Source of the DNA: Spirogloea muscicola
Taxonomy: Eukaryota; Streptophyta; Zygnematophyceae; Spirogloeales; Spirogloeaceae
Direction of reading: 5' to 3'
NCBI GenBank assembly: GCA_009602725.1
Contig: WELB01000048.1
Coordinates: forward strand, 71,789-130,390
DNA length: 58,602 nucleotides
Position numbers and translations under genes: made by a program. Numbering within the stretch: the first letter of the stretch is position 1; each line of letters starts with the position of its first letter. Under the pieces are notes generated by a model. It searched no databases. It saw only the letters and a list, made by a program, of their open reading frames with translations, and was not told the origin of the DNA. Below, piece by piece: positions 5,101-56,700 of this stretch.

Positions 5101-5590
5101 CTTTTTGGGCTGGCCTCTTGTCAGGGGGATTGCTTTCCGGCTGCTAGTCTTTCTGATTTGCGGCTCCTCACTAGAGGTTACTAAGTGCTTCATCCTACCG
5201 GGCAAGCTTTGAGAAAGCGCTTTTGGCCCCTTCGGACCTTGTCAATTATTTTGGGGCTAGCTGTTCACAGCCCTTGCCCCCCCCCTTTCAAACCTTGTGT
5301 GTCTTTTCGGGCGCGTCAGCGCTCTTTGGCTCATGCGGTCCACGCGCGGGCTGGCCGTGCTATGGCTGCTGCTTCCGGGTCTCGGCAAAGTGCCGCTTCT
5401 CCTGCTCCGAGTTACTCTGATCTGCTGTTGCTCACACTTGGATACTGAGCAGCCATCTGCATCTCCCTCTGCACCATCTTGCACTTTGTAGTGTAGTCCT
5501 TTTTCAGCACCTCTTTCTTTGGCTTTGAACATTGTCCATTCTTTTTGGGTTGGCTTTGCCAGCCCCTCTTCTCAATGGGCGAGCACCTTC
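5101..5590 (+). mobile_element. Two 5'-truncated LINE 3' ends (family F2), head to tail
   Basis: The first copy ends its ORF with SDLRLLTRGY and stop TAA at 5182-5184. A short 3' UTR follows with a hairpin at 5254-5273 (GGGCT...AGCCC). The second copy encodes HARAGRAMAAASGSRQ and ends YSDLLLLTLGY with stop at 5446-5448. Its UTR has the hairpin GGGTTGGC-TTT-GCCAGCCC at 5547-5565, followed by the family 3' end ATGGGCGAGC. Other copies in the window share the peptide ending, the UTR phrase CTTGTCCATTCTTTT and the hairpin, which identifies these as truncated copies of one element. No poly(A) tail is visible. Confidence 0.75.
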
Positions 5591-6172
5591 TTTCGGGCTG
5601 GCTTCTCACTGGCCCTTGCCCCACATCCGGCGATGGAGGTGTCTGGCATCATGCCAATCTCCTCAAGGCGCGGCAAGCCATACGTGCGGCGTCTGGACGT
5701 GGTCGCTACCCAGCGGGGCGGTGGGCATCGTCTGCTCTTGGACGTGGTACTGATTGACGCATACAAGGCTGGCGCACCCACGTCAACTGTGTCTGGCTGG
5801 GCCACGTCCAGCGCGGAGCGCAAGAAGGAGCGGCACTACCATGATCATCCTCGAGAGGACCATCTTTACCCGTGTGCCATGGATATCTACGGAGGCTACG
5901 GCGTGAAATGGTCCTCCCTGATCCAGCATCTGGCCCGGCTGGTTGATGCGCGTCATCAAAGTCGGGGGGGCAGCTTGGGCCACTCCAGCATTCCGCAGGC
6001 CTTAGTTGCATAGCATAGAATGCGGCTCTCGCTTAGTTTGCAGCGCTCGCAAGCATTGGCTCTTCATCAACGTGCAGGGCGCGCTCTAAGTCAGGCCTCC
6101 GGCTTTCGCGGCGGCGCTCCAGCTCCCCAAGTTAGCTTGTCAGATTTGTTTGTGCTCACTCGTGGGTACTAA
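5591..6172 (+). mobile_element. LINE ORF2 C-terminal fragment with restriction-like endonuclease region (family F2-like)
   Basis: One frame (about 5630-6010) reads RRLDVV...GGG-x-R-x-LLLDVVLIDAYK...ERKKERHYHDH...YPCAMDIYGGYG. It matches the LINE copy at 33.5-33.9 kb residue by residue in its conserved positions. The two spaced acidic motifs (LD-V and LLDVV) resemble the PD-(D/E)XK-type endonuclease at the C-terminus of R2- and Dualen/RandI-type LINEs. The reading frame shifts near 5970. The ORF end then resumes as LSLQRSQALALHQRAGRAL and SLSDLFVLTRGY with stop at 6170-6172. It is broken and 5'-truncated. Confidence 0.7.
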
Positions 6173-6247
6173 TGTCACCTTAGGTACCTTAGATTAGCTT
6201 AGGTCTCCGTACCATGTAGCCTTGTTTAGTCTGCACTCGACTCTGCC

Positions 6248-6325
6248 TGAACAATGTATTGGCTTGAATTTGCCTCCCTTTCAATTCATGCGCCCCGCGC
6301 GCCTTCTCTCACATCGAGAGAGCTA
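6248..6325 (+). repeat. Dispersed repeat RB (GGCTTGAATTGGCCTC...GCGCACCGCGCGCC)
   Basis: This sequence recurs at 15527-15566 (-), 15607-15650 (-), 25852-25925 (-), 25930-25985 (-) and 55813-55876 (+), with weaker versions at 44049-44095 and 49629-49672. It usually starts TGAACAATGTATTGGCTTGA and ends near CGCGCGCCTTCTC. I see no coding potential. It may be part of another retrotransposon 3' region. Confidence 0.6.
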
Positions 6326-6379
6326 CTCCATCTTTTCACAGCAGAAGAGTCTTCTCTCTCTTTTCACACGTGGCAGACG

Positions 6380-6880
6380 CGGTGCATCTACGTGCCGGTC
6401 GCGTTGGTTGCAGCCTCTGGCTGCAGACAAGGGCATTCCTTAGTGCTTTTTGGGAGGGAAAAGCGCTTTGGGAGAAGAGCGCGCTTTTGGTCCCTTCGGA
6501 CCCGGTCAACTCGCTTCGGGCTGGCTGTTTACTGCTGAGTGATCCATCCTCCCCCTGTGCTGACATGACATCGTCAGGATGGAAGAGCTCGCCCATTGAG
6601 GATAGGGGCTGGAACAGCCAGCCCAGAAAAGAATGGACAAAGTACGAGAAGGGAGCCAGGGGAAGCGCTAAGAAAAACAAGCACAAGAAGAAACAAAGCA
6701 GCTACGAATGACTCAGTAATTCCTGCTGAGCAGCCGCAGATCAGAGATGCCTAGCTAGGGTCCTGGAAGTGGGTCCCCTGGACAGAGCCAGAGGCAGCAG
6801 CTAGGGCTCTTCCGGCACGAAGGTGCAGCGCACGGGCCATGGACCTCTGCAGCGAGACGGCCCCTCTGTAGCTGCTAAAC
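6380..6880 (-). mobile_element. F2 LINE 3' end (minus strand), abutting a degraded plus-strand copy
   Basis: On the minus strand 6880-6580 reads VSLQRSMARALHLRAGRALA...TGTHFQDPS, then an ORF end SDLRLLSRNY with stop at 6713-6715. The 3' UTR follows, with a perfect hairpin at 6605-6624 and the terminal ATGGGCGAGC. A 4-base duplication (CTAGCTAG) in the ORF shifts the frame relative to the otherwise near-identical copy at 43311-43505. On the plus strand, 6370-6540 holds an older decayed copy (AVHLRAGR) whose UTR hairpin at about 6519 is weak. Confidence 0.7.
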
Positions 6881-6882
6881 GC

Positions 6883-7085
6883 TGGTCGGCCCCTCCAAAC
6901 CCTTGTCAATTCTTTATGGGCTGGCTTATCACAGCCCTTGCCCCCATTTGGAGTGCCACTTCTTCTTTGTTCACAGCACCTTGCCCCCACTGGGAGAGAA
7001 AGAAGTGGCACTCCCAATGGGGGCAAGGGCTGCGAAAAGCCAGCCCAAAAAGAATGCACAAAGGTTCAGAGGGGCCTAAGAGCGG
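6883..7085. repeat. Inverted pair of F2 LINE 3' ends (fold-back)
   Basis: The left arm (6883-about 6990, +) and right arm (about 7000-7085, -) are the same 3' UTR segment in opposite orientation. Each has its own small hairpin (6918-6937, GGGCTG...CAGCCC; 7027-7046, complementary orientation) and the flank CTTGCCCCCATTGGGAG. An RNA copy of either strand could fold into a long imperfect hairpin of about 90 bp with a short loop. I see no coding sequence. Confidence 0.7.
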
Positions 7086-7097
7086 TGAGCAGCTGCG

Positions 7098-7430
7098 GGT
7101 CAACCTGCTGTAGGTTATGTGGATATTTAGATGTGCTTGCTTTCCTTTGTACTTGGCCATTGGCCTATGTTTGTTTCAAATACACGAAATTTTCTACAAA
7201 GGGGCCTGAGGATGCAATGGTAAAACAGGGGGAGGATGGATCACTCAATAAGTACGAGTGAGGAGCCTCAGATCCGACAGACTAGCTGCCGGGAAGCTAT
7301 CACCCTGACGAAAGCCAGAGCCGGCAGCGAGAGCACGGCCAGCTCGCAGATGCAGAGCGTGGGCCATGGACCTTGCCTCCACTGGGAGAGCCACTTTCTT
7401 CTCAACCATTGCCTTCACATTCGGAAGCGG
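7098..7430. mobile_element. F1 LINE tail (+) followed by F2 LINE ORF end (-)
   Basis: 7098-7195 is the F1 tail: CTGTAGGTTATGTGG...TACTTGGCC...GTTTCAAATACACGAAA, the same as after the ORF at 34084. 7400-7245 on the minus strand encodes MAHALHLRAGRALAAGSGFR, and then SLSDLRLLTRTY with stop at 7245-7247, which is the F2 ORF end. No full ORF remains. Confidence 0.7.
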
Positions 7431-7439
7431 CTGTTCCGT

Positions 7440-7630
7440 TCATTCCTGAGGCCCCCCCGGGCTCACGCCTGCGAGCACGTGTCAGGCTCTAGCGCCCCGC
7501 CTGCGCCGTGCCCCGGCCACGTGGCGGGCCTGCCAGGGCCCCCACTGTTGCCGCCAGGTGCCCCTCTCAACCCCCCCCTCCCCGACAGTGCACCTGCGCC
7601 GCTGCCCCTCGCCCACTCTCCGCGCCGCGC

Positions 7631-7668
<38 letters not shown>

Positions 7669-8552
7669 CNCGGAGGAGGGCGCCGCGCTCCAGGGCCCGC
7701 CGCAGCGCTGCCGCAGTCGCGGCCGCGCCCTCGCCGCCTGCCTGACTGGTCGGCCCCCACCTCCGTCCCGTCTTCTGCCGCGGTGAAGCCCGTTGGCGCG
7801 CTCATGCGCTCCGTCTCGCGCCGTGCCCGACATGGTCACTCGTTGAGGACAGCGTCCCTTCAGAATCGTCGTGCTCGGCGCTCCTGCCGGTCGCATGCCG
7901 AGGAGGCTGAGAGACGAGCATGCCTCGAGTTCACGAGGTGCTTCGGCTGCGACGTTTCACTGCGGTGTTGCCTGGGTGCACTGGCAACGGCGGCGCGCAC
8001 TCTTCAGTATAATAACCAGTTATACTGAAGATTCCTGATCCTCTCTCTGCTTCTGCATGGCCTCACGCTCCGCTTCACTGGGCCGGTTTGGCTGCAGCAG
8101 GAACCATCTGCCTGCAAAAGCGTTAGCATGCCAGCGGGTGGCTTGAAGGCCCGGCGGCTTGGAGGCCTATGACGGAGCGCGGCCCGGTTAGGGGAAGCAG
8201 GGGCGAGCGCCGTCCTATCTCCTGCTTGGGAGCTGCGAAGGCCCTGGTCGGCGGAGCAAAGCCTGGCAGCGGCGACCTCGACCCTGCCAGAAGGAATGAG
8301 ACCTTCGTGCAGAGGTGAGGCAGGGAGGGCGCCTGAAGGCCAGGGCTCGCACTTTGCCTTCTTGACCACTTTGGTGGCCACCCCAAGTTCATAGTGTGTG
8401 TAATTTAACTTTGATTTGGTGAGGAGCCTGGTCTGCTTGCTCGTGGCCTCTAGTTGCTTGATTGGTCTTTGAATAGAGAGGTACAGCTCTCTTGCGTGCA
8501 TCGCAATCTGCAATTACTGTCAAAATATAGGGTTCTTTCTTTGGACTGGCTG
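7440..8552. other. GC-rich CGG-repeat tract and upstream region of the PP4R1-like gene
   Basis: 7632-7669 is an uninterrupted CGG/GGC repeat with one N at 7670. The surrounding 7440-7860 is very GC-rich and open in several frames because of composition, which is not evidence of coding. The region lies just upstream of the PP4R1-like gene and resembles the CGG-rich 5' ends of ACP and CHLP. It therefore probably contains that gene's promoter and perhaps an unrecognised first exon. For 8030-8540 I see nothing recognisable. Confidence 0.4.
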
Positions 8553-11500
8553 CAGATTATACCATGTTTGCTACATGGCCGAGGCTGCTGAGCGAGCTGG
8601 CCGCCACACCTCGGCGGAGGTTTTCGTTCCCCTCTGCAAGGAGCTAGCGGGTGACAGTGAGCCGGAGATCCGACAGGCCCTGGCCAATCAGCTCCCTCAA
8701 CTTGCACGCATCTTCTTGGATGTATGTGGATAGCTGTTCTTACACTGCTTTCTTCTCTTCGTCGAGCAATAACAGCGCAGCTAGGCTGAGTCCTATACTT
8801 TCGCTTGACCAATTAGGATTGCTGTAAAGGCAAGGGGAGTCTTTCAAGCAAGCAACGTGCAAAATTTCAGGCATGGAAGCAAATCAGCAATGTCAGATCA
8901 TATGCACAAGGCCCTAGCAATTTCCCTGCAGTAAAGCGCTTGTGGGCTATGTCTAATAGGGTGGCCAGGAGGCCCTCTCTACTGAGCTGCTGGGTCTTCT
9001 TCATGTCAGCAAGGCTCTTCTCAAAGATTCCTGTGGAGAGGTTGCAAATGAGTCCCATGCCTTTTTCGAAGTTATTAGACCTTCATTTCGCCATGTTCTT
9101 AATCTTCATGGTAGCATTGTCCACGAGGTGCCAGTTGTGGCGTCTCTTATCTTCTCTGTTGAGTACCAGCACTTGGGGAGCAGTATTTCAGTGGCAAAAC
9201 TTGGGGCAATTTTGTGCAGGTCCAGGTGGCTGCAGAGCATGCCTCATTGACATGTTGCAGAAGGCTGAAGGTCTCACACAGTTGGAGAATGAGCTGGTGG
9301 AGATCGTTAGCACGCTCTCAACAAGCAGGGAGGAGACACAGAGGATGTGTGCAGCCAATGTGCGTAACATGCCAGCCAGATACAGGGATCCAATCTGTAC
9401 ATACTGTGCACAGAGACATGGCAGGCACGATGCACAATCAGACGACGAGGTTGTAGTAGGTCTGAAATCTCTACCGTCATTTGTGTGTCTATGCACGTGG
9501 TAAAGTGACCTGTCTGACAAGTTCAGCATAGTGGTCTGCAGCTTGCAGTTTGTTGCTCGGAAGGCTTACAGCTTGGACTCTTTGAGGCAAACATTGCCCC
9601 TGAGATGGTCAAGCTTGCAGCTGACTCCGAATTCCGTGTCCGAAAGGTTGGCTACGCCTCTGCTACTTACAGGACTTACTGACTGGGCTGCTTGCTCCAA
9701 GCAAACACTTTGTCTGAATGAAATTGCAAGCCCTTTTGATTGTTGATGATTGATTATTGATAATGATTGATTGTTGTGCTAGATCTCGCTTGCAAGTATT
9801 GACCCTTAGAGGACCCCTATGTTGTGAAGGCCGTAGCGGTTGGATTGCCAAGATGCTGCGAGATTCTGGCAAGGAAGTCCAGCACAGTGATTGACCAGCT
9901 GGTACTTTGCTCCTTCCAATATTGCCCGCTACTATGTGCTGATCCATCTTTAATTGCTTCATAGGATGCAATTGTCGAAGACCTGCTACGTGGCAGGCAG
10001 CTTGATTGAGGTGCACATTTCACTCAGGTAGTCAATTGCATCAGATCAACTATAAGGTGAACACTACCAGGTCTTCTGTGCACGCTACAAAGAAAGCTGT
10101 GGTCTTTGGTAACATTGATATTGCTGGGCAGAATATAAGCAAGACGCCAAATTGTGTATGGTGGAGCAATCACTGCTGCAATTGACTTTGCAACTTCTGC
10201 AAACCCTCCTTGCAGCTGGATGTGTTCGTCATGCTTTCAGCAGACTCTGTTTGGGCTGTTCGAACGGCATGTGCCGAGGGTATTGTGCATATTGAAAAGG
10301 CTGTGAAATCTGCTGCTCGAGATGAACTACTCGCTGGAGTCATCGAGCATCTTGCCAAGGATGTAAGATATGTAGAGCAGCCCACATGTTAATACGAAGT
10401 TGTGACTATGGAGCCTAGAAATATCCAGGGTATTCATTGAGCATCTTGCTCTGAAAGTTGCACTGACTAGCTCAATGTGTGCTTAGACCTGTTGCTGTAC
10501 AAGCTCCTCAATACAAACTGCTAACAAGTGGCAGGGCTGTCTACTTGGTGGCAGGAGTCTACATGGGTGAGGGACGCTGCATTTCAGATGCTTGGTCCCT
10601 TGATCTCCGTCCTAGATTGCCCCTTGCAGGTGAAGTACCTAGCTTAATGTGCTAATTTGCATGCAATTGATGTCTGGCAAGAGTACTGTGGCTCACATGA
10701 CATGACCCTTTGTTAACAAGCAAGTAGTGGATGGATGCATAACTTTCAATTTGAGTACGTCTGCAGCAATCTGCGAGACTGGTCGAGCTGTACACCAGTA
10801 TGGCTGACCCGTCTTCAGAGGACAGCCGATTACGTATGTATTGCGCCTTCAATTTTCCAGGTATTGTCCTCATCCCAAGAAGTATACCAGGAACATTGTT
10901 GATTACATGAATGCATAAGAAAGTCTGCCACGATGCATGTTATTGCATTGCCATGCTTGTCTCAATACCAGCGTCTGAGTCGGACGAGCAAGAGCAAACC
11001 GCCAGGTGCTCTTTCGGACAGCCTGCAGATCTCAGGTAGTTTCCAATTAGCAATGAAGTCGCTCGGAGTGTGGTGATCCTCATATATCCTCACATAATTT
11101 CATTGATACTATTGAAATCGGCATGTGGAGATGGGCATGCAGCTGTTGTGCAGAAACTTGGTTCAGAGAGGTGGCATGAGTTGAGTACTTCATTTCAGGT
11201 CTTGCTGACGTGCGACCAGGTCTGTGTGAGATGCAAGTTTCCTTTTCCATAGACGTCTTACTTGACAGACGCACAAGCATCAGGAATGCCGTGTTGCTTC
11301 GATGTACAACCACTAAACAGAGTGCATGGGGAACATGTCTCTTTTGTTTTTGTGATTTGCTGGTCTCTGCTTCTCATAACTGAGTAATGAAACCTGTTTC
11401 TTTCGCTGATGCACTTAGTCCTTTGGCCTCTTTTCGAAACTGATCGATCATTTCCCTTATGGCTTGCAGGAGGCTGTGCGCAGGTCACTTGCCTACTCAC

Positions 11501-14280: not shown

Positions 14281-14940
14281 CGAGGCTACGTGCTCTTCTC
14301 ATTATGCCGCTAGTTGCGGGTCTGCTAATGAGCGCCTAGAATTTTTGGAACTGAGACAAACCTTAGTAGCTTTGTATATTACATTTGTGGCTTAGTCTTG
14401 GAGTACCTTAGCGTGCCCACATGAGTCGCCAGCATCAGCTTTTCCCAACTACTCAGCTTGCGTATGAGCACCTTGCCGAAAGTGTAGATATAGTGAATGC
14501 TTGCAAGCACCGGTTATAATTTGAGCATGCAGCAACCGATGTAACACCAGCCTCAAGCACGTCGTGGCCACAGGATACGGCCTATCTGTTGGTTGGCAGG
14601 CGCATTTTGGCGTGGTTGTAAACTGGATGTTGCCCCCTCGATTATAAGCCAGTGCGCATCCTTAGAGTAAATTGCAGTGCGTCTGCCAAAGAAAGCCCGC
14701 AGGGAAGGACGTGTCTGAGATGTGGAGGACATGGAGGAACCCAAGCAGCTGCGTTTGAGCAGGCGAGGGTTGCAAAGCAAATAAGTCCAGCGGCACAGAC
14801 TACGAAGTCTCTGGTGCTGTTGCTAGAGGCAGCAGAGAGAGAGCGAGAAAGAGAGGTTCTTCTGCGAATGAGCAGTGCTAGAGGCAGGAAAGGGGAGGGG
14901 AAGAGTGTGTGTGCGAGAGAAGGAAGCTCTTCCAATCTAG

Positions 14941-15890
14941 TCAGTGGCTGTGTTAGGCCAGCCCAAAAAGAATGTGTGTATGTGAGAGAGAGTGAGAGAG
15001 AGGGCAAAGTAAGAGACAGACAGACAGAGGTTCTTCCACAAAGGAGACAGGGAAAAGAGACCGCGATTGGCGCTATACTTGGACCTTGCCGTGGAGCGCC
15101 CACTGCGTGTGAAGACTGCGGCGCTCGTCCCAGAGAGGAGGCTCCGATCCCCGCACATGGGTCAGCGCGGCGTCAGTCCCTGCGCCTGCGCCTGCGCCGG
15201 CAGCCTCTCAGCGGCAGCGGATGGCCTTCCGTCGCCGGCCGCCGCCGCCGGTCCCGCCGCGGCCGCCGCGGCCTGCGCCGCAGCCAAGCGGGCCTCATAC
15301 GCCTCCAGCTGGTCGTAGTAGGTGTCCCAGACGCACGGCGCGCAGCCGCCGCCGCAGCAGTCGTCGGGGTCAGGCCTGTCCGGCGGCGAGCCTGGCGCAG
15401 CTTCCCGCTCCGCCGCCGCCATGGCGCGGCGGCGGCGGCAGCGGCCTCAGCCGGAGGCGCCGCTGCCGGCTGGGGGGCTGCCGGCGGTGCCCAACCAGAC
15501 GCCCGGGCTCCAAGGGAAGAGCGCATGAAATGAAAAGGAGGCCAATTCAAGCCAATACAGCGTTCAAGCGGAGTCTAGGGCAAATCAAACGGGGAAGAAG
15601 GCGCAGCGGTGCACATCAAGTGAAAGGGAGGCCAATTCGAGCCAAGGCATTGCTAGGCAGAAAGAGAGCAAGCGCGGCCAGATTAACTGGTAGCTGGGAG
15701 AGGCCAGCCCAAAAGACTGGACAAGGTCTGAAGGAGTCGGAGTGCTAAGGACTGAGACAGCAGTAAGCGAACTCTCAGTAACCTCTCGTCAGTAGATGCA
15801 AGTCTGAGTAGCTAGCAGGCGGAAAGACGTCGCCCTGACGGAAGCCGGAGGCCGCCGCCAGAGCGCGGCCTGNGGCGGAGCCCCGCCGCC
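14941..15890 (-). mobile_element. F2 LINE 3' ends (minus strand) with RB repeats
   Basis: 15885-15775 on the minus strand encodes GRALAAASGFRQGD and then SYSDLHLLTRGY with stop at 15775-15777. The 3' UTR continues to the hairpin at about 15692-15710. A second hairpin half-copy lies at 14946-14963, next to the phrase CCCAAAAAGAATG. RB repeats lie at 15527-15566 and 15607-15650. Between them, 15060-15530 is a GC-rich CGG/GCC tract without a supported gene. The element ends about 50 bp before the first supported exon of the glycosyltransferase gene. Confidence 0.65.
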
Positions 15891-25679: not shown

Positions 25680-26216
25680 TTCGTCAAGCGCTTTCTCTAT
25701 GGGTCCCCGAAGTGTAAGCAAAAAGTGCATCTTTCCGAAGGGGCGAGGGCTGTGAAAAGCTAGCCCGAAAAGATTTTGCAATGTCCGATAAGCGCTGAAC
25801 ACACAAGTAAGCAAGTAGACCGAGAAAGTGTGCTTCTTTCTCAAGAGAGAGAAGGCGCGCGGTGCGCATGAAATCAAAGCGAGACCAATTCAAGCCATTA
25901 CATTGTTCAGGCAAGAAGAGACAAAGTAACGGGCGGTGCGCATGAGCTGAGAAGGAGGCCACATCAAGCTACAGTAGTACACTCATCAGGCAGGAGCTAG
26001 TGCTAAGTAATGGGCTGCACATAGCGAAGCCCCATGCTAAGGGCTGGCTTTGCCAGCCACTCTTTCCCATGGGCGAGCTCTTTCAATGCTAAGGGGGGGC
26101 TGAGGTCCGGGCCTTTCAGACCTTGTCAACTCTCTTTTTTGGGAAGTTCGCCCTCTTGGAAGAGTCTGTCATGCCGCAGGAATGCGTGTATATTAAGAGA
26201 TGGGGAGGCCATGTGA
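25680..26216. repeat. F2 LINE 3' UTR copies and RB repeats
   Basis: A minus-strand F2 hairpin lies at 25747-25766 (GGGCTGTGAAAAGCTAGCCC). Two RB repeats follow at 25852-25925 and 25930-25985. A plus-strand hairpin copy (GGGCTGGC-TTT-GCCAGCC, then ATGGGCGAGC) is at 26041-26075, with the phrase TTTCAGACCTTGTCAACTC at about 26120. The segment at about 26182-26215 (TGCGTGTATATTAAGAGATG) recurs at about 32033-32065. No intact ORF is present. Confidence 0.65.
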
Positions 26217-31959: not shown

Positions 31960-32396
31960 GGCGGCGGCGGCGGCGGGGCCCGCGCTGGTGGGTGATTGGT
32001 CGACGGATGCACAGCAGCTGGCTTCGGGGAAAATGCGTGTATATTAAGAGATGGGGAGGCCATGTGTGGCCAAGTACAAAGGCAAGCAAAGCAGCTGGCT
32101 TCGGGGGGGGATCTCAGGGCGCTGCGGTAAATATCTGCGCGGCGAAATGGGGGGCCACTGTACCGGCTGTGGGGGTTTTCTTGCTGTCTGTGGAGCGGGC
32201 GCTGCATTCGGCCACGGTTTCGATTCCGCGGCGCGCTCCGCAGTGCCCCCACGGGGGCCGTGATCCGAGCGCAGCCAATGGGTGTCCAGGCGCCGCATCC
32301 GACGGCTTGGCGGCCCAGCCGCGCCCGGCGTTGCGACCAGCTTCGCCGCAGTCCCCCCTTTTCATTGTTTTTCTGCATCCTCAGGCCCCTTTGTAA
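31960..32396. other. GC-rich upstream region of CHLP with a diverged LINE tail
   Basis: CGG repeats occur around 31955-31978. 32033-32095 holds a minus-strand tail (GGCCAAGTACAAAGGCAAGC) related to the F1 LINE tail but with a different terminus. 32100-32396 is GC-rich with no supported coding region. It probably includes the CHLP promoter. Confidence 0.45.
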
Positions 32397-32789
32397 CTGA
32401 TTTGTAGCTGCTTTCTTTCTTTGTGTGCTTTGGTTTCTTAGCGCTTCCTCTGGCTTCCTCTGGCCCCCTTCTCGTTCTTCGTTCATTCTTTTTTGGGCTG
32501 GCTTGTCCAGCCCCTATCCTCAATGGGCGAGCCCTTTCCTTTGTAGCTGCTCACCGCTCTTAGGCCCCTCTGAACCTTTGTGAATTCTTTTTGGGCTGGC
32601 TTTTCGCAGCCCTTGCCCCCATTGGGAGTGCCACTTCTTCTTTTCTGGGCCTTCTCTCTCTCTTCTGGGCTGGTTAATCACAGCCATCGCCCTCTTCTTT
32701 TTGTGCTTGATTTTCTTAGCGCTTCCCCTGGCCCCCTTCTCGTACTTTGTTCATCTTTTTTGGGCTGGCTTTTCCAGCCCCTATCCTCA
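32397..32789 (+). mobile_element. Stack of F2 LINE 3' ends (four hairpin units)
   Basis: Four consecutive F2 tails lie head to tail, with hairpins at 32495-32513, 32592-32611, 32667-32685 and 32762-32780. Each is preceded by a form of CTTTGTNCATTCTTTT. The first shows the full sequence from GTAGCTGCTTTCTTTC to the terminus ATGGGCGAGCCCTTTC and is followed at once by the next unit. The last one is interrupted by the F1 LINE that starts at 32790. Confidence 0.75.
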
Positions 32790-34184
32790 TGCATGGTGGT
32801 GGATCTCTACAAGGAATATGGATGACTCCCTTCAGCAATCCCTGGCATCCCTACTACATTCTTCATCTTTTCCCCTCAGATGCAGCTTCCCCCCAGGCCT
32901 CCCTTCCCACCCGCATGGGCGGCCTTGGCTGCCGGTCGTTGTGTCAGACGGCGCAAGCAGCTTTCCTGGGCTGCTGGCACCAGATCGCCTCTCTGCTACC
33001 CATGCGCTTTCCTTGCCTCCACGACCCTGTACGCCTTGTGGAGGAGGGCCCCTTCTCCTTCCAAGTGGATCTGAGGAGCATCCGCGACTTAGCCATCGGC
33101 TCTTTCCCCTCTCTCCAACCCCTGCTCACGCCATTCTCCGCCCTTGCCCAAGCTTCCGATAGAGGGGCACAATCCAGACTGGTTACGGCAGTGGAAGACG
33201 AGCGCCGCAGAAGGTTGAGGAGGCTGCCAGAGATTCAGGACAATCCAAGGAGCCTGGCAAGACTTACTTCTCTAGCCACACCTGGTGCCACGGATTGGAT
33301 CACCTCACGCGCCGTCGCCAATGCCTTCAGCATCAGCTCCGAGGCCTTTCGGACGTCGCTGCAACTCTTCCTCGGCCTCCCACCTAATTGCCTGATTGGG
33401 TTGCGCCAGTGCGAGTGTGGCTTCCGTGCAGAGGTGCTGAGCTCGCCGCTCACATGCTGAGATGCCCCACAGGACCAGAAGTGGTGGGCATCCACAACCT
33501 CCTCCGCGATGCCCTGGCGGGCTTGATGCGCGACGCCGGCTACCGTGCGGTCGTAGAAGTCAACAATATTATGCCAATTACCACGGACGCCCAGGGACGT
33601 CATCATCGCCGCACACTTGACATTGTGGGCGTGCAACCTGGTGGAGGACCTCGGGCCCTGTTCGACGTGGTTGTTACAGAGGCGTACAAAGGTCCAGCAT
33701 CGACACAAATCGCTGGCCACGCAGTGGGCATTGCAGAGCAGAGAAAGCTACAGCACTACTCCGACTACCCCCGGTGCGATCAGCTCCTGCCAGCTGCAGT
33801 TGACACCTTTGGCTGTCTGGGTCCGCGTTTCCACACCCTCCTCCACAACATTGCCAATCTAGGCTACACACGACGTGCAGATGTGTTCCCGGCTGAGATG
33901 TGCTTGCCAGCTGCATATCTGTCTTTCTTGCGACGACGAGTTTCGGCCTGTTTGCAGCGTGCCCAGGATAATGCCTTGCACCAGACAGCTGGGCGTTCTC
34001 TAGTTGGTGGCAGAAGGGCTTCTTATCTGACATCTAGTATTCAGGCATCGATTAGCGACCTTTACGTTTTGACCCGCGGTTACTGAGCGGGTCATTCTGC
34101 TGTAGGTTATGTAGGTCTCAAATGTGCTTGCCTTTGTACTTGGCCATTTGGCCTTCGTTTGTTTCAAATACACGAAAATTACTT
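32790..34184 (+). mobile_element. 5'-truncated LINE (family F1), ORF2 C-terminal part, with target-site duplication
   Basis: The insert is flanked by CCCTATCCTCA at 32779-32789 and 34185-34195 (11-bp duplication). It encodes the end of a LINE polyprotein: RMGGLGCRSL, TDWITSRAVANAF, SSEAFRTSLQLFLGLPP, then a Cys-His cluster CEC...AHMLRC split by a frameshift near 33435. A restriction-like endonuclease region follows (RTLDIV...GGGPRALFDVVVTEAYK...AEQRKLQHY...AAVDTFGCLG), and it ends ASISDLYVLTRGY with stop at 34084-34086. The 3' UTR is about 98 bp and ends TTTCAAATACACGAAAATT, without poly(A). The reverse transcriptase core is missing by 5' truncation, as is usual after abortive target-primed reverse transcription. 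Confidence 0.85.
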
Positions 34185-35110
34185 CCCTATCCTCAATGGG
34201 CGAGCCCTTTCTTCTCCTGGAGGAGACTCTTCGTCTCCATGAGCTGCTACTGCTGCTGCCCAACTTCTCCTCTAGCAGCCCCAGCAGGACAGGTCGACAA
34301 GGCCCCAGTCGGCACTTCCGGCCCTCTTTCCCCCCCCCCTCCATTCCTCCTGCCACTGCTGGTGCCTCACTCCTCTAGCAGCCGGCCCTCTCTNCCACAC
34401 GCGTGCCGGCCGCGCTATGGCTATGGCTGCTGCCTCAGGGTCTAGCCGGAAGAAGGCTCGCCCATAAAGAAAGAAGAAGGCTCGCCCATAGAGAAAGAGG
34501 GGCTGGCAAAGCCAGCCCAAAATGAATGGACAATGTCCAAAGCCGAAGAATGAGATGCCGAGGAAGGACTCCCCCCCCAACCCCTCCATTCCTCCAGGCA
34601 CAGCTGCTGCCTCACTCCACTAGCAGCTCCAGTAGCTGCTAGATGCTAGCTGCTACGTCATAAGATGTGCTTACCTTTGTACTTGGCCATACTGGCCTTC
34701 GATAGTTTCAAATACACGAAATTTATTCATGAGCTGTTTCTTGCCTTCTGCTTCTTGCCTTCAGATTTTAGAGGAAAAATAGCTCTTTCATTGTAAGGCA
34801 ATGGCTTTGTGAGGATATGCACGAGGAATGTACAAGGTTGTAAAGCTCTCCGGCCCCTTCAGGTCTTGTCTGTGCTTTTCAGGCTGGCCTCTCATAGCTG
34901 CAAATAACTCCACCTTGGGGTGCTGACTCGGGGTTACTCAGAAGTAAGAAGGAAATACTGTTCCAGTAGAAGGCGTTGGCTGTGATCGGCCAGCCCACGG
35001 AGAAGAATGAACAGAGTGCGAAGGTGCCAGAAATGCGCTAACGCACACTGCGACCTAAGTGGCAACTAAATGCTCAATATCCCCTGTTGAGCAGCCGCAG
35101 GTTGGTGGTG
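34185..35110. mobile_element. Further F1 and F2 LINE fragments
   Basis: 34196-34215 is the displaced end of the F2 tail (ATGGGCGAGCCCTTTC). 34440-34550 is a minus-strand F2 3' end with the perfect hairpin GGGCTGGC-AAA-GCCAGCCC at 34499-34518. 34662-34722 is an F1 tail only about 60 bp long. 34881-34900 and 34978-34996 are weaker hairpin copies, the latter on the minus strand and followed at about 35090 by the GAGCAGCCGCAG segment of an F2 ORF end. No intact ORF is present. Confidence 0.65.
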
Positions 35111-37479: not shown

Positions 37480-37785
37480 TAAAGCAAGCGCGGCCAGATT
37501 GACTGGTGGCTGGGAGAGGCCAGCCCAAAAGGAATGGACAAGGACAGAAGAATCCTGAGTGCTAAGTCAATGTAGTCATGGAACACCGTCTGTATGCACC
37601 TACCTGGCTGGCTTTGACAGCCGCTCTGTTTATTTGTGCAGCCGCTTTCTGCTGAGATCGACCAACCGCCCCCGCCCTGCCCACCCTCCGAAAGGAAGTG
37701 GCTCTCCTCCATGGCTCTCTTCAGGGCGACGCTTTTCCGCCCTCGTGTTAAGTTTGACTAGCACTTACTGACTAAAGGTTATTGA
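37480..37785. mobile_element. F2 LINE 3' fragments between ACP and the SPOT1-like gene
   Basis: A minus-strand hairpin with the UTR phrase CCCAAAAGGAATGGACAAGG lies at 37507-37545. A weaker plus-strand hairpin is at 37606-37624. A decayed plus-strand ORF end (TKGY-stop, near 37767-37781) is present. Confidence 0.55.
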
Positions 37786-43299: not shown

Positions 43300-43577
43300 G
43301 GGCTGCTGACTGGGACCCACTTCCAGGACCCTAGCATCTCTGATCTGCGGCTGCTCAGCAGGAATTACTGAGTCATTCGTAGCTGCTTTGTTTCTTCTTG
43401 TGCTTGTTTTTCTTAGCGCTTCCCCTGGCTCCCTTCTCGTACTTTGTCCATTCTTTTTCGGGCTGGCTGTTCCAGCCCCTATCCTCTATGGGCGAGCTCT
43501 TTCTTCTGCTGACGCGGGTGTATTGGCTTTCGGTGTGTTGGCTTGATCTGGCCTCCCTCTCAAAATACACGAAATTC
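43300..43577 (+). mobile_element. F2 LINE 3' end followed by an RB-like segment
   Basis: TGTHFQDPSISDLRLLSRNY ends with stop at about 43369-43371. The 3' UTR contains the hairpin GGGCTGG-CTGTT-CCAGCCC at 43460-43478 and the terminus ATGGGCGAGCTCTTTC. It is nearly identical to the inverted copy at 6580-6775. At 43525-43577 an RB-like segment is interrupted by TACACGAAATT, the last bases of the F1 tail, flanked by CCTCTCAAAA on both sides. Confidence 0.75.
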
Positions 43578-48310: not shown

Positions 48311-48341
<31 letters not shown>

Positions 48342-48345
48342 CGTG
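48189..48345. repeat. CGG repeats split by a T53 homopolymer and an N
   Basis: 48253-48305 is 53 consecutive T, preceded by an N at 48252 and flanked on both sides by GGC/CGG repeats (48200-48251 and 48306-48345). It lies immediately upstream of the importin alpha start on the minus strand, where it reads as poly(A). It may be an assembly fault, or an inserted poly(A) tail. Confidence 0.7.
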
Positions 48346-48654: not shown

Positions 48655-48895
48655 ATCGCTCAATCCATGTAATGAATGGGCGAGCTCTTTCTACGTAAGG
48701 AAGTTTCGTGTATTTGAAACAAACGAAGGCCAAATGGCCGAGTACAAAGGCAAGCACATCTAAAGACCTACATACTCTACAGCAAACTGACCCGCTCAGT
48801 AACCACGGGTCAAAACATAAAGGTCGCTAATCGATGCCTGAATACTAGATGTCAGATACGAAGCCCTTCTGCGACCAACTATGTAAGGCATCCAG
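48655..48895 (-). mobile_element. 5'-truncated F1 LINE 3' end
   Basis: The minus strand reads RRASYLTSSIQASISDLYVL and TRGY with stop at 48796-48798, then the F1 tail ending TTTCAAATACACGAAAC at about 48704. Beyond it, 48665-48685 is an F2 terminus (ATGGGCGAGCTCTTTC) in plus orientation. It is closely similar to the copies ending at 34184 and 43923. Confidence 0.75.
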
Positions 48896-49480
48896 AAGAA
48901 GTGGTACTCCCAATGGGGGCAAGGGCTGCGAAAAGCCAGCCCTTGCCCCCATTCCAGAGGGCCAGCGACTTTCTTTGATTTATTTCTGGAGCTGGCCAAT
49001 CACAGCCTTCGCCCACTGCTGGAAGAGTTCTTTGCCTGTGAGGCCAGCAAAAATAAAACAACGTCTTCGAGTTTACGGCAGTGGCTGTGAAGAAGTAGCT
49101 CTCCCAATGGGGGCAAGGCTGTGAAAAGCCAGCCCGAAAAGAATTGACAAAGGTTCGAAGGGGCAAACTGACGGAGGGGCCTAAAGCGCTATGTCAGAAC
49201 GGGAGTGGGAGGAGGAGGGACCACTCAGTAGCGAGGAGTGAGGAGCCTCAGATCCGACAGACTAACTGCCGATAAACAATCCCCTTGGCAAAATCCAGAG
49301 GCTGCAGCGAGAGCACGGCCAGCACGGAGATGCAAGGTTTGTGCCATGGGCCGCTGAAGGGAGACCGATAAGCGCATGCTATAGACCTTGGCCCATGAGC
49401 TAGAGGCGTTGAAGTCAGCCGGCTCACCTCGCCTACAGGACACGCTGTGAGAGGCCAGCCCAGAGGAACGTCCGAAGGGG
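48896..49480 (-). mobile_element. F2 LINE 3' ends
   Basis: Minus-strand hairpins lie at 48923-48942 and 49117-49135 with the flank CCCAATGGGGGCAAGG. An F2 ORF end at 49443-49225 reads LSVSLQRPMAQTLHLRAGRA, then SLSDLRLLTPRY with stop at 49225-49227. A partial unit is near 49447-49465. There are several overlapping truncated insertions and none is intact. Confidence 0.65.
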
Positions 49481-50356: not shown

Positions 50357-53300
50357 TCAGGCTACTAATTCGAAGAGTTCTGCCAGTGTTCGCGACGGCG
50401 CCATTTCCTGCTCCACAGCCTATACACATCAAAAAATCATAAATCATGTCAGCCTAGGGAATAAGATGCAATGGCAAATTAAGTTGTCAGAAGGCAATGA
50501 GGTTAGAGAGCTGTATATGCAGACCGACCAGAATGACCTCATATCCAGGCTACCAAGTTAGATGCCATTCAACTACTTGTACACGTATCTGTCATAATTG
50601 AAGTGTTCTTGCAGTGGCTTGCATCATTGAGCAGCTGATTAGTACCTCAACGATCTTATCTGACGCCTTGTCCAGCACAAGTGCTTCGACACAAACCTCA
50701 GCTACCTGCAAGAGATGCGGCACAACTTAGGCACAATTAATGATTATAAAATGCAGGAGGTGTGCGCGTGACAGGTAACCCCACGCAATTCACCATCCTC
50801 AAAGGTCCAAATGTTTGTAATACCAATTGCTGCACTACCACTAACTGCTCCTACTGACTATCGATTGATTTGAGCCCTTGGTACCTGGGTACTCTAAACA
50901 GTAGTGATATGAAGCGAGTACCCTCTGAAGTGGATTGCTGTGATCAAGATAGCTTACCTGGCCGCGGGTTATGGCTCCCATAAATTGCGAGTCAGCCTGC
51001 TTGAGCACAACGCTCGCATTCTGATCAAGGAGGACACAGAAGTACATGTCTGAGTATAGGGCACAGACATACTGCTAGGCACCCACAAGACATCAACAGC
51101 ATGTTAAAGACAGCCAGTCCAATCAGAAGCACCATCTCTTAATAAACGTGCTACACAATCCATATGTGCAATTGACACCCTTCGAAGTAGCACGGAAGCT
51201 ACAAGATGATGTGCTATGTACAAGGCTGCAACTGCAAGAAAGCTCAAGACTAAAGCGAGAGGACATACGTTTGCCCCACCAGACATTGCATACCTTCCTG
51301 GTTTCACTTTTAAGTCCGCCTGGACGCACAATGGTGTAAGTCAAGCCAGATCTTTGCAGGTACAGTTCCGCTTGCCTCTTCCTGCATAAATATGCCTTGA
51401 TGTCAATCTTGTACTTGGAAGCTAATGTGTGCATGCAGAGCTTATGCAAGACGATTACTAACATTAAATAACTTTCTTGACTTCATCACAGCATGCAGAC
51501 TAGCGCCAGGTCTGAGATGCAAAAGGTCCTTGTATAGGTTGCCTTGTCAGCCTTTGTTTTCTATCCAAGAGTACTGTTTGTCACGTTACCAGGGGCTTCA
51601 CTCGAGCCAAGTGCCCATGTTTCCTTACCAGAATGTTATTCCCCCAAATAGATTCAAGGGATTCAGTAGGTTCGAAACACCGATTGATGTCACGAACACA
51701 AACTGCACCGCAGCAATGGAAGTAACCAACTGCAGTCAGCACTGCAAGCTCCACATTGTTCACCAGTGCTAGAGCTGGGTCCTGCAAAATGAGCCTCAAG
51801 ATGTTCATTCACACGCCCTACATACTGGTGATACAATATTTTGCTACAGATAGCTCGTAACTACACCTTATCGATATTGCCGTTATTCTTGGCTGCAGAA
51901 ACCAGGTTGGCCACCCCTTCATACTCAACCTGTTTGCCAGCTATGGCAGCCATGTCAGTACCAAGTCCAACTTTGCCGACAAGTTAAGATGGTTTTGCCA
52001 GCCATACATCAGTACCAGTACTCCTAGGTGCATCCCAATCCCAAAATCACCTTGTAAGGACCAAATGGATCCAATGGACTTGGCCGATAACCGATAGCAC
52101 AGATGATCGCATTGCTGCGGAAGCCCACAAGTTGCATCTCAACCGTGTCAGCGACAATGTCCAATCTGCATCAGGTCTGAAGTGCAAGCGACACGGGCCT
52201 GCACTGCAAATGGCAATTTATGCGTGTCCCTTTACAAGAAACAATCATGCGCTTCAAATACAAGGCCATCTCACCAGTCCCCAATAGCACGCTTCAGCGT
52301 CTCGTATCTAGTCAGATCAGCTTCCACCAGCTGAGATGACATCAACAACAGAATAAGATCTCATTACTTTCCATTATTCACGCGCCAAGAGAATGTTGCC
52401 AACAACTTCAAATGTTCACAACAATGTGAAGTCTACATCAACGACCGGCAGTCAGCAATTACAGATTGCTTGCAAGCTGCCAAAGCATTCACTGCAGAGG
52501 GCTTGTGCAAAGAACACCTCGTGATACGATCAATACAGTAATCAGCTTAGATTGAATCACAATCACGAGTGAGAAAGCACCTCCACGCCTTGGAGCTGAC
52601 GAAGGTACCGCTGGCGGGTGACATTTGTGGCAACAGCCCGGACTGGCACTCCCTTTGCTACAAGGTTCTCCACTACCATTCTGAAGATTCACAGGTCGGA
52701 CACTTGTTAGTACTATTTCGCAACTGATCCAAAATCAGTGCCAGGTCCTTAATACTTCCAGTTCAAGACCAATCAAAATAGACTGGAGATGCAACAGTGC
52801 TGACAGGAAGTTGGAGATAACCCACCTCCCAGTCCTGCCAGAGGCGCCCACCACGAGCACCTTAAGGCCCTTGTACTTGCCACCTGAGCCACCCTCTTCT
52901 CCCTCCTTCTCAATGTTCACCATGCTGCCTGCCGGCTTGTAGACCTCGACCAAATCACCCCCGTCAATCCTAGTTGTCCTCTCAGGCTCTGGCCCTGTTT
53001 CCTGAGACTCCCTGGGGCTGGACATGGAACCCTTCATAGAGCTCTCTGCAGAGCTCTCACTACTGTCAGGCCCCCGCAGTCCGAGGGACTCTGCAGTTCG
53101 CCTGAACGAATCCATGGTGTCCTTGCCCACAATCTCCTCAGCGATGTCTTCGCCAGTCTCGCGGAGGGCTTGCCCTACATCCTCCAGAGCAGCCCCGCTC
53201 TCGGCCGCAGCCTCAGCCATGACCGATTGAACGTCCTCACCAGCCCTAGACGACCTGCCAGAGAGATGCTAGATATTCAGGAATTTGCCAGCAATAGTAT

Positions 53301-54896
53301 GATACTAAACAGATCTACTGCAGTTTTACATCTAGCAACCCTTAAATCTAAGCCTCGGGCCCCTACTCAAACCTTGACCATCACCAAGTGTCACAGGCAA
53401 CAGACAGGTCACAGAAATGGGATGATTAGGCTCGTCCATGCCAGTTTTGCACCTGTCAAAGGCACGGGAGGTGGCATTCTGGAGCCTCTCGCTGGCTTCC
53501 TCGGCACTGGCCTGCACCTTGCGGCCACTGCTCTGAGCCTGCTGAGCGACCGCGTCAGCCCTCTCTGCCCCCTCCGCCACGAGGCCCTGCAGGTTCTGCT
53601 GGGCAGACTCGGCAGCCGCCTGCGGATCGTCTAAGGCTTCCTGCACTCCCTCCTGGCCCAACTGCGTGAAGAAGCGAGGGCATAGAGTTGGTCAGTAGAA
53701 GAAGACTTAAATACTGGTCAGTGGCCAACGCATGAAATTCTTCCAGAACCAATGTTGACTGGCATCTCCTCATCAACATATGACTCACACAACCATGATG
53801 GCTGCTGAGAGGCCGCACAACATGACCTGTAAGTGTAGGCCTGCGAGCAATGCAGCAAGGCCCTGTCCCATCAAACCATATTATTCATGATCTTATCAAG
53901 GTCCCAGCCACGATGACTCCACGGTTGAGGACCTCACCCTGGCTACTCTGCGGGCCTGCTCCCCAACCTCGTCGCCGACATTGGCAGCCTGCTCCTGCAC
54001 AGCTTCGCCAACCCTCTGCGCCGACTCCAAAGCGTCATCACTGTAACGAGCCTCCTGCCTCACTTGGTCCCCAACTCTGCTGGCCCCTCCCTGGACGGCG
54101 TCTGCGGCACTGGATGCTGCTTGCCCCGCCTGCTCGCCTTTACTCTCCAGGCTGTCCTGCACCTGCTCCTTCTGCGTATCGCGAGCCACTGAGGGCGTCT
54201 GCGGTGGCGCGCTGTAGCTGCCGGCGTTATCAGCCGATGTGTAGGCCGGGGACTTGCTCGGGCTGTTCCAGACATCAGCATTGGCCGCCCTTCTCAGCTG
54301 CTCGTTGTACGCTTCGAGTCCGTCACCGGGACTGATGGGGCCCGACGAGGCGGCAACCATAAAGGGCACTCTCTTGCTGCCGCCAGTAGCACCTGCGCAG
54401 AGCGCAAAGGCCATCCACACCCGTTCGCCTCGGATTCAGGAGCCTCAGGTCAAAGACAACATGGTAGCGAAGAGGCGATTGCAGCGTCCCTGCCATAAAT
54501 GTAGGAGCCTCAGATCGGAGACAATCTGGCAGCGAAGATGCAGATTGCAGCGTCTGAGCCAATATCTGGAGTAGATGAGCACGTGACATACTGGTGGAGC
54601 GCCTGGCAAGGCGAGCCAATCCACTGTGGCTGTCCACGGGCGACCTCGAGACTGCGCGCCACAAAGCGGTCAACTTGAGGGCTTGGCGCGAACGTCTCTG
54701 GCGTCGGCCTGCCGTCTGATTCCTGCGGTTCCCTGGTCGTCGCTGATCTGACCTTCGATTGCGATATGGCAAGCAGGAGCTTTTGCCAAGCTGAGACAGC
54801 CAAATTCTGCTCACCTCGTCGTGTTTGCTGGGACGCGGCGCTGGGAGCGGCCGAGGCCACCCCCAGCGCGCACCGCATGCCGGCCAGGGCCGCCAT
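50357..54896 (-). CDS. NAD(P)-binding atypical SDR, TIC62/YCF39-like, with a helical N-terminal extension (plastid, probable)
   Basis: Thirteen minus-strand exons: 54815-54896, 53938-54392, 53453-53661, 52826-53254, 52581-52680, 52275-52330, 52051-52165, 51870-51932, 51629-51702, 51294-51381, 50958-51020, 50646-50705 and 50357-50419. They total 619 codons, in phase. The Rossmann motif VLVVGASGRTGR is followed by GVPVRAVATNVTRQRYL, ADLTRYETLKRAIGD, IICAIGYRPS, LLNPLNLFGGITFWKRQAEL and YTIVRPGG, typical of TIC62 and related atypical SDRs that bind NADPH in the plastid. The N-terminus has a short transit-like segment. About 230 residues of Ala/Gln/Glu-rich amphipathic repeats follow (DAVQGGASRVGDQVRQEA, QEALDDPQAAAESAQQNLQG), resembling LEA or apolipoprotein-like helices. 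The junction of 52275 and 52165 creates TGA under normal GT-AG splicing, either a sequence error, a non-canonical junction or a broken allele. Confidence 0.8.
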
Positions 54897-55479
54897 CTCC
54901 GCGACGAGCGAGCGAGCGCCGCTACTGCAACGACGACGAGAGGCAGTGGATCGATATCCTGTCAGACAGCACTGCCGGCAAGCCCGTCCTCTCGTCGGCC
55001 AGCAGACGGCGCCGCCACGGCCAGCCGCACTGGCAGGACCAGTAGAGGCCCCCAGCGAGACGAGCAGGACGGCAGGAAACCTGAGCAGCGCTGCGAGCCG
55101 TCTGCTGGCTGCGCGTGCGGCGCGGAGCCTGCCTCCCTCACCTTCCGCGCGATGGAGGAAAGAGCGAGAAGGAAACGTCCACCGCAAACTCGCGTGGCTC
55201 GCGTCGCCGCCGCCGCCGCCGCCGCCGTCGTGGAAATGACACTGGGGAGGGGCGACTGCAGCCCGAATGTGGGGGGAGGGAGGGAGGTGGGCGGAGGAGA
55301 GGGGCTGGTAAGGGCTACGAGCGGCGACCGGGGAGGGGAGGAGGGGGAGCTTCTGGGGGGGTGACGTGGAACGAGGCCGCAGGGGACGGGCCTTGCTCCC
55401 GGCTCCACGCGGCGGCGTCCAAAGCCACCACGTGGACAGTCCGCGGCCCTGCCCCCGCGAGCGCCCTGGAGACTCCGGC
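54897..55479. promoter_or_regulatory. GC-rich upstream region of the TIC62-like gene
   Basis: Includes a GCC repeat (55204-55230) and dense G runs on the plus strand (55268-55360). It must contain the promoter of the minus-strand gene starting at 54896. Long open frames here reflect GC composition and I do not call them genes. Confidence 0.35.
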
Positions 55480-56700
55480 TCCTTCAGACCTTGTCCATTC
55501 CTTTGGGCTGGCCTTTCCCAGCCACCAGTGAATCTGGCCGCGCTTTCTCCCTGGAGAAGGTTGAGGTCCCTGGTTTCGGGCGGCATCCATAAATTGTACA
55601 TGTCCTCTTGGGCTCTCACTCAATTTTGCACCTCTTTCTTTGGCTTGTCCATTCTTTTTGGGCTGGCTTTGCCAGCCACTCTTCTCTATGGGCGATCACC
55701 TTTCCTGGCCCTCATTACCACCGCTGTCACTGCTGCTGCCCACTCACCCCGCAGCTCCAGCAGTGGTCGTTTGATGGGTCAACAAGGCCCCCTTATCTTT
55801 GCTCTAGTTTTTGTCTGAACAATGTATTGGCTTGAATTGGCCTCGCTTTGATTTCATGCGCACCGCGCGCCTCTTCTCTCTCTCTTATGGGCGAGCACAT
55901 TCTTCACAGCCATTGCCTTACTATGAGATTGAGCTTTTTCTTTTCCCCAGCAGCCGCGAGAGCGGTCAGGAAGGATCCGGACATGCGCAGACGTGGCCCA
56001 GCGAACGGGGGCAAGTCGGATAAGAATATCAGCTCTACGAAAGTGTAATATGCACCTTCTACAGGGGGAATGGAGTGTGTACAGAGTGATGGAGGGCGTG
56101 AGTGGCCAAGTACGAAGGCAAGCACATCGGCAAGATGTACGTCACCTCCTGCTTAGCAGACCCGCTCAGTAACCACGAGTCAGCACGTAGAGGTCGCTAA
56201 CTGATGCCTGTCATCGGACGGCAATTGACAAGCGCTTCTACCACCAGCTAAAGCTCGACCAGCTTTCTGGTGCAAGGCATGAACCTGAGCTCGCTGCAAT
56301 CAGGCTGACACACGACGTCGCAAAACGACAAAGAGGCTGCCGACATGTCGGCTGGAAGCATATACTCACGTCGTGCACATCCTAGACATGCAACGTTCTC
56401 AAGTAGGGTATGAATACGAGGACCCATGCCCAGGGGAACTAAGCTCCCGTCCGCTGTAGTCTCGTGCATAGCTGTGTGGTTTAAGCACCTTCCGGCTTTC
56501 GCCTCTGCGGACCTTGTCCATTCTTTTTGGCTGGCCTTTTCCAGCCGCCTCCTTAAATTGGGTGAGCTTCTTATCTCATGCAGCCAAAGGTGTCAATTGC
56601 GCTGGTAGGAGGTGATCGCTACAGGGGTAATCAGAGTAGTGCACAGGGGGCGAGGTGTGTTTCATGCCAGCCCAGAAAGAGTGGACAAGTTGCGAACCTG
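55480..56700. mobile_element. F1 and F2 LINE fragments and an RB repeat
   Basis: Plus-strand F2 tails with hairpins lie at 55505-55523 and 55660-55677 (perfect GGGCTGGC-TTT-GCCAGCC), and another at 56529-56547. An RB repeat is at 55813-55876. On the minus strand, 56420-56166 is an F1 ORF fragment (GMGPRIHTLLENVACLGCAR, then SVSDLYVLTRGY and stop at about 56166-56168), followed by an F1-like tail to about 56090. A half hairpin is at 56664. Confidence 0.65.

Follow-up and report, generated by a model that had tools for sequence, protein, structure and literature searches.

A 3'-terminal hairpin on LINE lineages with an R2-type endonuclease signature in Spirogloea muscicola

Long interspersed nuclear elements (LINEs) move by target-primed reverse transcription. 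Here, we analyzed a stretch of 58.6 kb from Spirogloea muscicola (G000:C48:71789-130390, hereafter the window; the genome comprises 153.1 Mb in 471 contigs) and found that one small RNA hairpin, set at a constant distance from the tip, marks the ends of thousands of element copies across the genome. Judging from the sequence, this hairpin probably (we put the chance at roughly 0.63) serves for recognition of the 3' end in a group of LINEs that bear the signature of an R2-type, i.e., restriction-like, endonuclease (RLE). The end of the element RNA would consist of an apical stem-loop of 6-8 bp and, after a spacer of 8-9 nt, the tail motif, followed by a short tail of pyrimidines, which would read (TTTCTTC)n in the A lineages; in these lineages, the tail motif may also pair with an upstream TTGTCCATT to form a basal helix. 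If the RNA folds in this way in the cell, the element's own protein would most likely bind the stem-loop. Binding would set the pyrimidine tail at the nicked target, and reverse transcription would begin at the tail. A role as a recognition site for reverse transcriptase (RT) had been put forward in an initial annotation of the window; the anatomy described below fits this role, while recognition by the RT itself would be assumed by analogy.

Exact copies of GGGCTGG-N2-16-CCAGCCC occur five times in the window versus 0.02 expected, and the tail motif is found 11 times at no more than 3 mismatches versus 0.97 expected. A profile made from 36 copies, which uses sequence only, matched 23 places in the window at a cut-off of E ≤ 0.01 (Table 1 gives hairpin ends together with associated LINE sequences). 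The match at 34185-34213 is to a tail lacking the hairpin, and E exceeds 0.0005 in four cases. Thus, the repeated hairpin is real, but the initial count of about 28 copies was too high. Seventeen of the 18 coordinates listed at that time lie inside profile matches, while 32667 lies in none; the listed copies at 6605, 7027, 25747, 34499, 37507, 48923 and 49117 are on the minus strand. Fourteen arbitrary 10-kb stretches (140 kb) of the genome yielded 19 profile matches, which shows that the window is rich in hairpin ends. Genome-wide, ATTCTTTTTGGGCTGGC had 7462 matches at no more than 1 mismatch (0 for the reversed control), the tail 5773 matches (control, 2) and the combination TTGTCCATTC-N28-44-ATGGGCGAGC 1937 matches (control, 0).

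The anatomy of the 3' end was read from copies selected by their open reading frame (ORF) and picked blind to the hairpin, namely 40 copies out of 150 ORF-end matches listed for lineage A2 (16830 first-look candidates) and 20 out of 150 for lineage B (17834 first-look candidates), and from 41 tails taken from 40 of the first listed places. The ORF-selected copies show the order stop codon, 3' untranslated region (UTR), hairpin, tail and then unrelated DNA. The hairpin is present in 35 of the 40 A2 copies (missing in L037, L041, L052, L056 and L067), in 16 of the 20 B copies (missing in L129, L131, L136 and L141, the first two being broken by another LINE) and in 37 of the 41 tail-selected copies. 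It is followed by the tail motif in 32/35 A2 and 15/16 B copies. Hairpin and tail lie 9 nt apart in 30 of the 32 A2 copies (8 and 20 nt in the others) and 8 nt apart in all 15 B copies, and the stop codon precedes the hairpin by a median of 88 nt in A2 (41-113) and 97 nt in B (35-101). None of the 3' ends read carries poly(A). These values bear out the earlier description of a hairpin at a set spacing after the stop codon and before the tail, on ends without poly(A); the constant gap, together with the end mapped by target duplications (see below), fixes its distance from the 3' end of the element.

Two other roles were considered for parts of this region. We excluded that ATGGGCGAGC is the 5' end or the target of a next element, as the ORF-selected copies pass into ATGGGCGAGC and then into unrelated flanks. 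The hairpin as a stop for the RT was also dropped: the 5' ends of 40 copies truncated no more than 70 nt from the tail spread over 9-69 nt, with no clear peak as judged by eye and without a formal test.

The tails differ between lineages: A ends in ..ATGGGCGAGCNCTTTCTTC, B in ..CCCCATTGGGAGTGCCACTTCTTC, and C runs on into ..CAATCTGGCCGCGC. At least two TTC units follow the tail in 17 of the 32 A2 tails. Thus, the terminus ATGGGCGAGC(T/C)CTTTC, first described as shared, is found in the A lineages but not in B and C. Likewise, the hairpin does sit on LINE 3' ends, yet it belongs to a group of related lineages and not to the single family (F2) originally proposed, and the sister families F1 and F3 end otherwise. 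The stem core GGGCTG/CAGCCC is common to lineages whose protein C-termini, where aligned, show 63-73% identity to A2 (A and B copies). The claim that the outer GGGCT/AGCCC pairing is kept does not extend to the outermost G-C pair: of 100 copies tallied from the 1937 selected by their flanks, 17 have lost it, comprising nine GGGCTGG/CCAGCCA and eight TGGCTGG/CCAGCCC stems. Some single copies are altered in other ways. In L108, where CATTC is joined directly to AATGGGC, and in L012 the hairpin is absent or cut inside with the flanking motifs kept, as by a jump over the stem. L089 (G000:C3:1023028-1023080) reads AAA in the loop where TTT is usual (GGGCTGGCAAAGCCAGCCC), as would result from an inversion of the hairpin at its site. 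In the window, the tail unit ATGGGCGAGCCTTCTTC.. is doubled behind one hairpin (34450-34489, minus strand), as if reverse transcription had slipped while starting.

The 3' end of the A lineage is GGGCGAGCNCTTTC(TTC)n, without poly(A), as placed by target duplications. A copies nested in B 3' UTRs, whose tails pass into (CC)TTTGTAGCTG, allow the most precise mapping. We read 23 such places, i.e., 20 + 2 of the 30 junctions at an insertion hotspot described below, plus L129. The left half of B lies upstream of the nested A copy in 18 of the 23. Of these 18, 13 have a duplication of 6-12 bp, and the remaining five show lengths of 0, 2, 3, 4 and 39 bp. The values of 0 (L160) and 39 (L162) reflect a measurement stopping at a mismatch or at another B copy; the left halves concerned end in CCCCTTTGT and CCCCTTTG. 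One more of the 30 junctions (L003) has no left half within the stretch read. Among 59 truncated copies, 13 have flank repeats of at least 8 nt compared with 3.9 in mismatched pairings, some of the 13 stemming from neighboring repeats or simple sequence.

With respect to the encoded protein, a copy of sister family F1 contains one open frame of 1350 codons from stop to stop. It shows an N-terminal CPVC..H..C motif, the YADD motif of RTs and, near the C-terminus, a CECG..H..LRC knuckle followed by RTLDIVG..ALVDVVVTEAYK. Pfam assigned RVT_1 (E 1e-16) and found no endonuclease domain. Among LINE structures, R2 (E 2e-4) ranks ahead of L1 (E 0.03). In the hairpin lineages, a copy of lineage A (L017) encodes a CCHC-like knuckle just upstream of the 3' end, along with RRADLVA..IITDVVTTDSYD as an RLE-like core; the core is also present in a frameshifted A2 copy (in L029). 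R68, D71 and D86 are invariant in five aligned sequences (two F1, one F3, L017 and the A2 copy in L029); a decayed copy lacking the first Asp (L020) was left out of the alignment. The C-terminus of the hairpin lineages is 37% identical to that of F1 (E 6e-14). The core (R..D..V, then D-V), which lies where Pfam has no domain, we take to be that of a restriction-like endonuclease. The elements thus carry a signature of R2-type endonucleases, in a comparison that rests on F1 and, for the hairpin lineages, on the C-terminal part of the ORF. The RT region of the hairpin-lineage copies fetched reads N, and their RT would thus be deduced from the C-terminus homologous to F1. ORF bodies of the hairpin lineages read N in L124, L021 and L014, unlike the F1 body of L125. 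In LINEs of the L2 clade, the endonuclease is of another kind, not an RLE. The AP (apurinic/apyrimidinic)-like endonuclease expected for the UnaL2/L2 clade was not found in F1, whose ORF has the RLE-like core and yielded no further endonuclease domain in Pfam.

To what extent does the hairpin behave as a structure? Three A-type copies in the window fold better than dinucleotide shuffles (z -2.96, -2.10 and -2.14), and in their predicted folds AATGGGCGA pairs with the upstream TTGTCCATT in a basal helix below the apical hairpin. According to these models, the "terminus" of the A lineage can itself pair with an upstream box, which the initial annotation had missed. Single folds of F1 (z -0.49) and F3 (z -1.03) are no better than shuffles. 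Majority sequences of 182 distinct full-span copies form the basal helix in two A clusters (98 copies); in the B cluster (30 copies) and the C cluster with the most copies (7) they form the apical hairpin only, and C clusters of 3 and 2 fold otherwise. A basal helix in B and C was considered and is unsupported: the B columns need a register shift, and two B copies of the window fold no better than shuffles (z +0.86 and +0.66). In a set of 14 lineage sequences, 93.3% of the cells in both helices pair versus at most 61.2% with slid partners, and RNAalifold kept the hairpin in 30 B copies (z -2.86).

Most copies are dead, and single copies decay freely in both arms; lineage-level tests were therefore used in place of covariation over all copies. 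We asked whether changes at the inner pairs 2-6, partly classified by hand, keep or break pairing. Stem types present in at least two copies show four changes relative to the commonest type, and all four keep the pair (T.G at pairs 4 and 5, G.T at pair 6 and A-T at pair 3). Among hand-classified single-copy changes, two keep and nine break it (p 0.011 against the multi-copy types). One of these nine is an artefact of a copy with an internal duplication, and others are doubtful, so that the count is two kept to six to nine broken according to how such rows are treated; the stricter counts give p 0.015, 0.021 and 0.030. Two multi-copy types have lost pair 1. The comparison favors structure, but its numbers are small and types sharing changes are partly dependent.

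Several observations weigh against a recognition hairpin. Covariation, the check suggested by the initial annotation, stayed below significance in the 14 lineages, with a single two-sided pair and 96 of 500 shuffles as good for both helices, and 92 of 500 for the apical helix alone. The two-sided change (G-C to A-T at pair 3) is one haplotype found in three copies genome-wide, next to 42 A.C and 75 G.T at the same pair, and p in the keep/break comparison rises to 0.061 once this three-copy type is also left out. Over all distinct copies, mostly decaying ones, apical pairing shows no excess (658 of 1000 shuffles as good). In single copies, paired positions thus mutate independently, which is the outcome that the initial annotation had named as refuting; free decay is, however, to be expected of such copies. 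The basal core shows a slight excess in the same copies (33 of 1000 shuffles as good), and the pairs that close the basal helix at its ends are frequently disrupted (at one end, in 7 of the 14 lineage sequences). The poor folds of the two B copies belong here as well, as do RNAalifold runs that did not return the hairpin in 98 A copies (z -1.40) and gave another fold in 14 C copies (z -1.02). Moreover, this hairpin is absent from the 3' ends of F1 (..CAAATACACGAAA and then T/C-rich) and F3 (..CATGCGCACCGCGCGCC) in the window, and the best structure matches of the F1 ORF are group II intron-like and related RTs (E 2e-5), not R2. No short interspersed nuclear element (SINE) sharing the 3' tail was seen by eye in the 41 tail-selected copies, and no genome-wide search for such a partner was made.

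The arms might instead act as a primary-sequence binding site, on RNA or DNA, for the LINE protein, their pairing being incidental. Such a site would agree with the missing covariation and with a 5' arm, GGGCTGG, that is nearly invariant across lineages. However, the perfect 7-bp inverted repeats in the window exceed expectation by far (see above), the arms remain complementary while loop length and sequence vary between lineages, and multi-copy stem changes preserve pairing, which makes this explanation unlikely in our view. We regard it as distinctly improbable that the hairpin acts in forming or stabilizing the 3' end of the transcript and not in RT recognition. A constant distance of 8-9 nt to the tail motif, along with 3' ends free of poly(A), would suit this function, but no known RNA family matches the window at the gathering score of Rfam, although this is weak evidence. 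Finally, many copies are young and alike, and single copies decay in both arms, as expected if the hairpin were neutral, functionless sequence shared by recently expanded copies. We give this explanation hardly any credence, as the UTR between stop codon and hairpin differs, as judged by eye, from one lineage to another (A, A2, B, C) with the arms retained, and as the multi-copy changes keep pairing in four of four cases. Recognition of the hairpin by the LINE's own protein thus appears to us the best explanation.

The nested copies point to a hotspot of insertion. Genome-wide, 30 junctions join an A-type tail to the B 3' UTR at GTAGCTGCTCACC, precisely at TTTGTAGCTGCTCACC or 1-3 bases beside it; one of them lies in the window (32376-32547). 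Control positions in the same UTR gave 0 junctions at CTCTTAGGCCCCT and 0 at CATTGCATCCTCA. In the loci read, the three motifs occur 40, 41 and 21 times, respectively, the first count being raised by the hotspot loci fetched; the controls are thus about equally common or half as common. As several tail types and many cut points of the A copies are found at the junctions, many of the insertions are independent. The hotspot concerns one target UTR, and only a small fraction of the A copies take part in its 30 junctions. The target CCTTT resembles the tail CTTTC, and we infer that the tail may anneal to the target, which the hotspot junctions make testable. A wider scheme is conceivable, and we offer it tentatively. 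R2-type LINE lineages might share the apical hairpin, have swapped their tails and, in some cases, have gained the basal helix. Lineage A would prefer the B UTR at CCTTTGTAGCTG, upstream of the B hairpin, with the primer strand annealing to the presented CTTTC(TTC)n tail. Hairpin, tail and target would form one priming device by which LINEs parasitize LINEs. The hotspot merits a separate study.

A 3' hairpin as a handle is known as such from other organisms; here, the evidence for it is structural. According to PMC4176376, UnaL2 of eel and ZfL2-1 and ZfL2-2 of zebrafish (L2 clade) are LINEs of the stringent type with a 3' stem-loop, and PMC3747384 describes a short repeat tail, not poly(A), for UnaL2. 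The likeness consists of a stem-loop near the 3' end, a short repeat tail in place of poly(A) (UnaL2) and a 3' tail of its own for each LINE. The elements described here differ by their R2-type RLE signature and by the lack of a SINE partner among the copies read. Thus, the comparison with the UnaL2 type made initially is apt for the anatomy (hairpin, short spacer, short repeat tail), but the R2-type signature, likewise missed initially, argues against obvious relatives of L2/UnaL2.

The 3' UTR structure of R2 is longer and unlike the compact hairpin found here. RLE-bearing LINEs comprise the clades CRE, R2, R4, NeSL and HERO, which are mostly target-specific, HERO often being non-specific, as stated in PMC4640811, and R2Bm and R2Dm require their own 3' UTR (PMC4176376). 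Our elements resemble these LINEs in one long ORF, read in F1, that includes an RT and a C-terminal CCHC-like knuckle with an RLE-like core; they differ in the mostly unrelated flanks of the copies read plus one hotspot, as opposed to a single target gene. For plant L1-clade LINEs and SINEs, PMC3747384 reports a 3' hairpin with a conserved CGAG in the 3' flank of the stem, and for Chlamydomonas a LINE/SINE pair, L1-1_CR and SINEX-3_CR, ending in poly(A). The plant elements share a hairpin near the 3' end, and their CGAG beside the stem might be compared with GGGCGAGC in the A lineages, possibly a coincidence; they belong to another clade, and the Chlamydomonas pair differs by its poly(A) ends. 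No title dealing with this hairpin or the hotspot came up in our searches of open-licence PMC text, which we do not take to mean absence from print. If the proposed role is true, stringent recognition would extend to abundant, mostly dispersed R2-type LINEs in a 153-Mb genome. Thousands of copies in lineages with different tails would then offer natural data on which part, i.e., apical stem, basal helix or tail, the enzyme reads.

Table 1 Hairpin-bearing 3' ends and associated LINE sequences in the window.
Feature	Position	Strand	Evidence
A-lineage 3' end, hairpin GGGTTGGC-TTT-GCCAGCCC (T.G pair 4) at 5547-5565, tail ATGGGCGAGCACC	5531-5592	+	Profile; predicted bipartite fold, z -2.14
A3-type 3' end with hairpin, tail and, in the predicted fold, basal helix TTGTCCATT/AATGGGCGA	6581-6641	-	Profile, E 9e-19; fold z -2.96
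B-type 3' end, GGGCTG..CAGCCC	6902-6964	+	Profile
B-type 3' end	7000-7062	-	Profile
5'-truncated F1 copy in opposite orientation, in a B 3' UTR at GTAGCTGC (same site as the hotspot of A copies)	7097-7194	+	
Diverged hairpin 3' end	14921-14974	-	Profile, E 6e-8
C-type 3' end, TAATCTGGCCGCGC 3' of the hairpin	15666-15725	-	Profile
B-like hairpin, weak	25742-25780	-	Profile, E 7e-4
Copy of hairpin plus tail only, 10-bp target-site duplication ATGCTAAGGG on both sides	26034-26095	+	
Left part of a B 3' UTR, broken at CCTTTGTA by an A2 copy	32376-32395	+	
A2 copy nested in the B 3' UTR; hairpin 32495-32513, tail 32523-32538	32396-32538	+	Profile, exact repeats
B hairpin and tail, 3' of the nested A2 copy	32577-32639	+	Profile
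A2 hairpin without ATGGGCGAGC tail	32746-32789	+	Profile
F1 LINE ORF, C-terminal part (CCHC-like knuckle, RLE-like core); sister family without hairpin	33388-34086	+	
A2 tail-only copy CCCTATCCTCAATGGGCGAGCCCTTTC, hairpin absent, adjoining an F1 3' end	34185-34213	+	Profile
A-type hairpin, then doubled tail unit	34450-34534	-	Profile, tail search
C-type 3' end	37483-37542	-	Profile
A3-type 3' end, predicted bipartite fold	43443-43505	+	Profile; fold z -2.10
B-type 3' end	48896-48942	-	Profile
B-type 3' end; ORF end near 49240, minus strand	49090-49151	-	Profile
C-type 3' end	55490-55548	+	Profile
A-type 3' end	55645-55702	+	Profile
Diverged 3' end, TGGCTGG..CCAGCCG	56513-56572	+	Profile

Besides the LINEs, the window contains pieces of host-like genes, namely a DUF179/AlgH-like segment at 4001-4858 (E 8e-16) and a lipoyl ligase A/B segment at 57034-57510 (E 6e-9).

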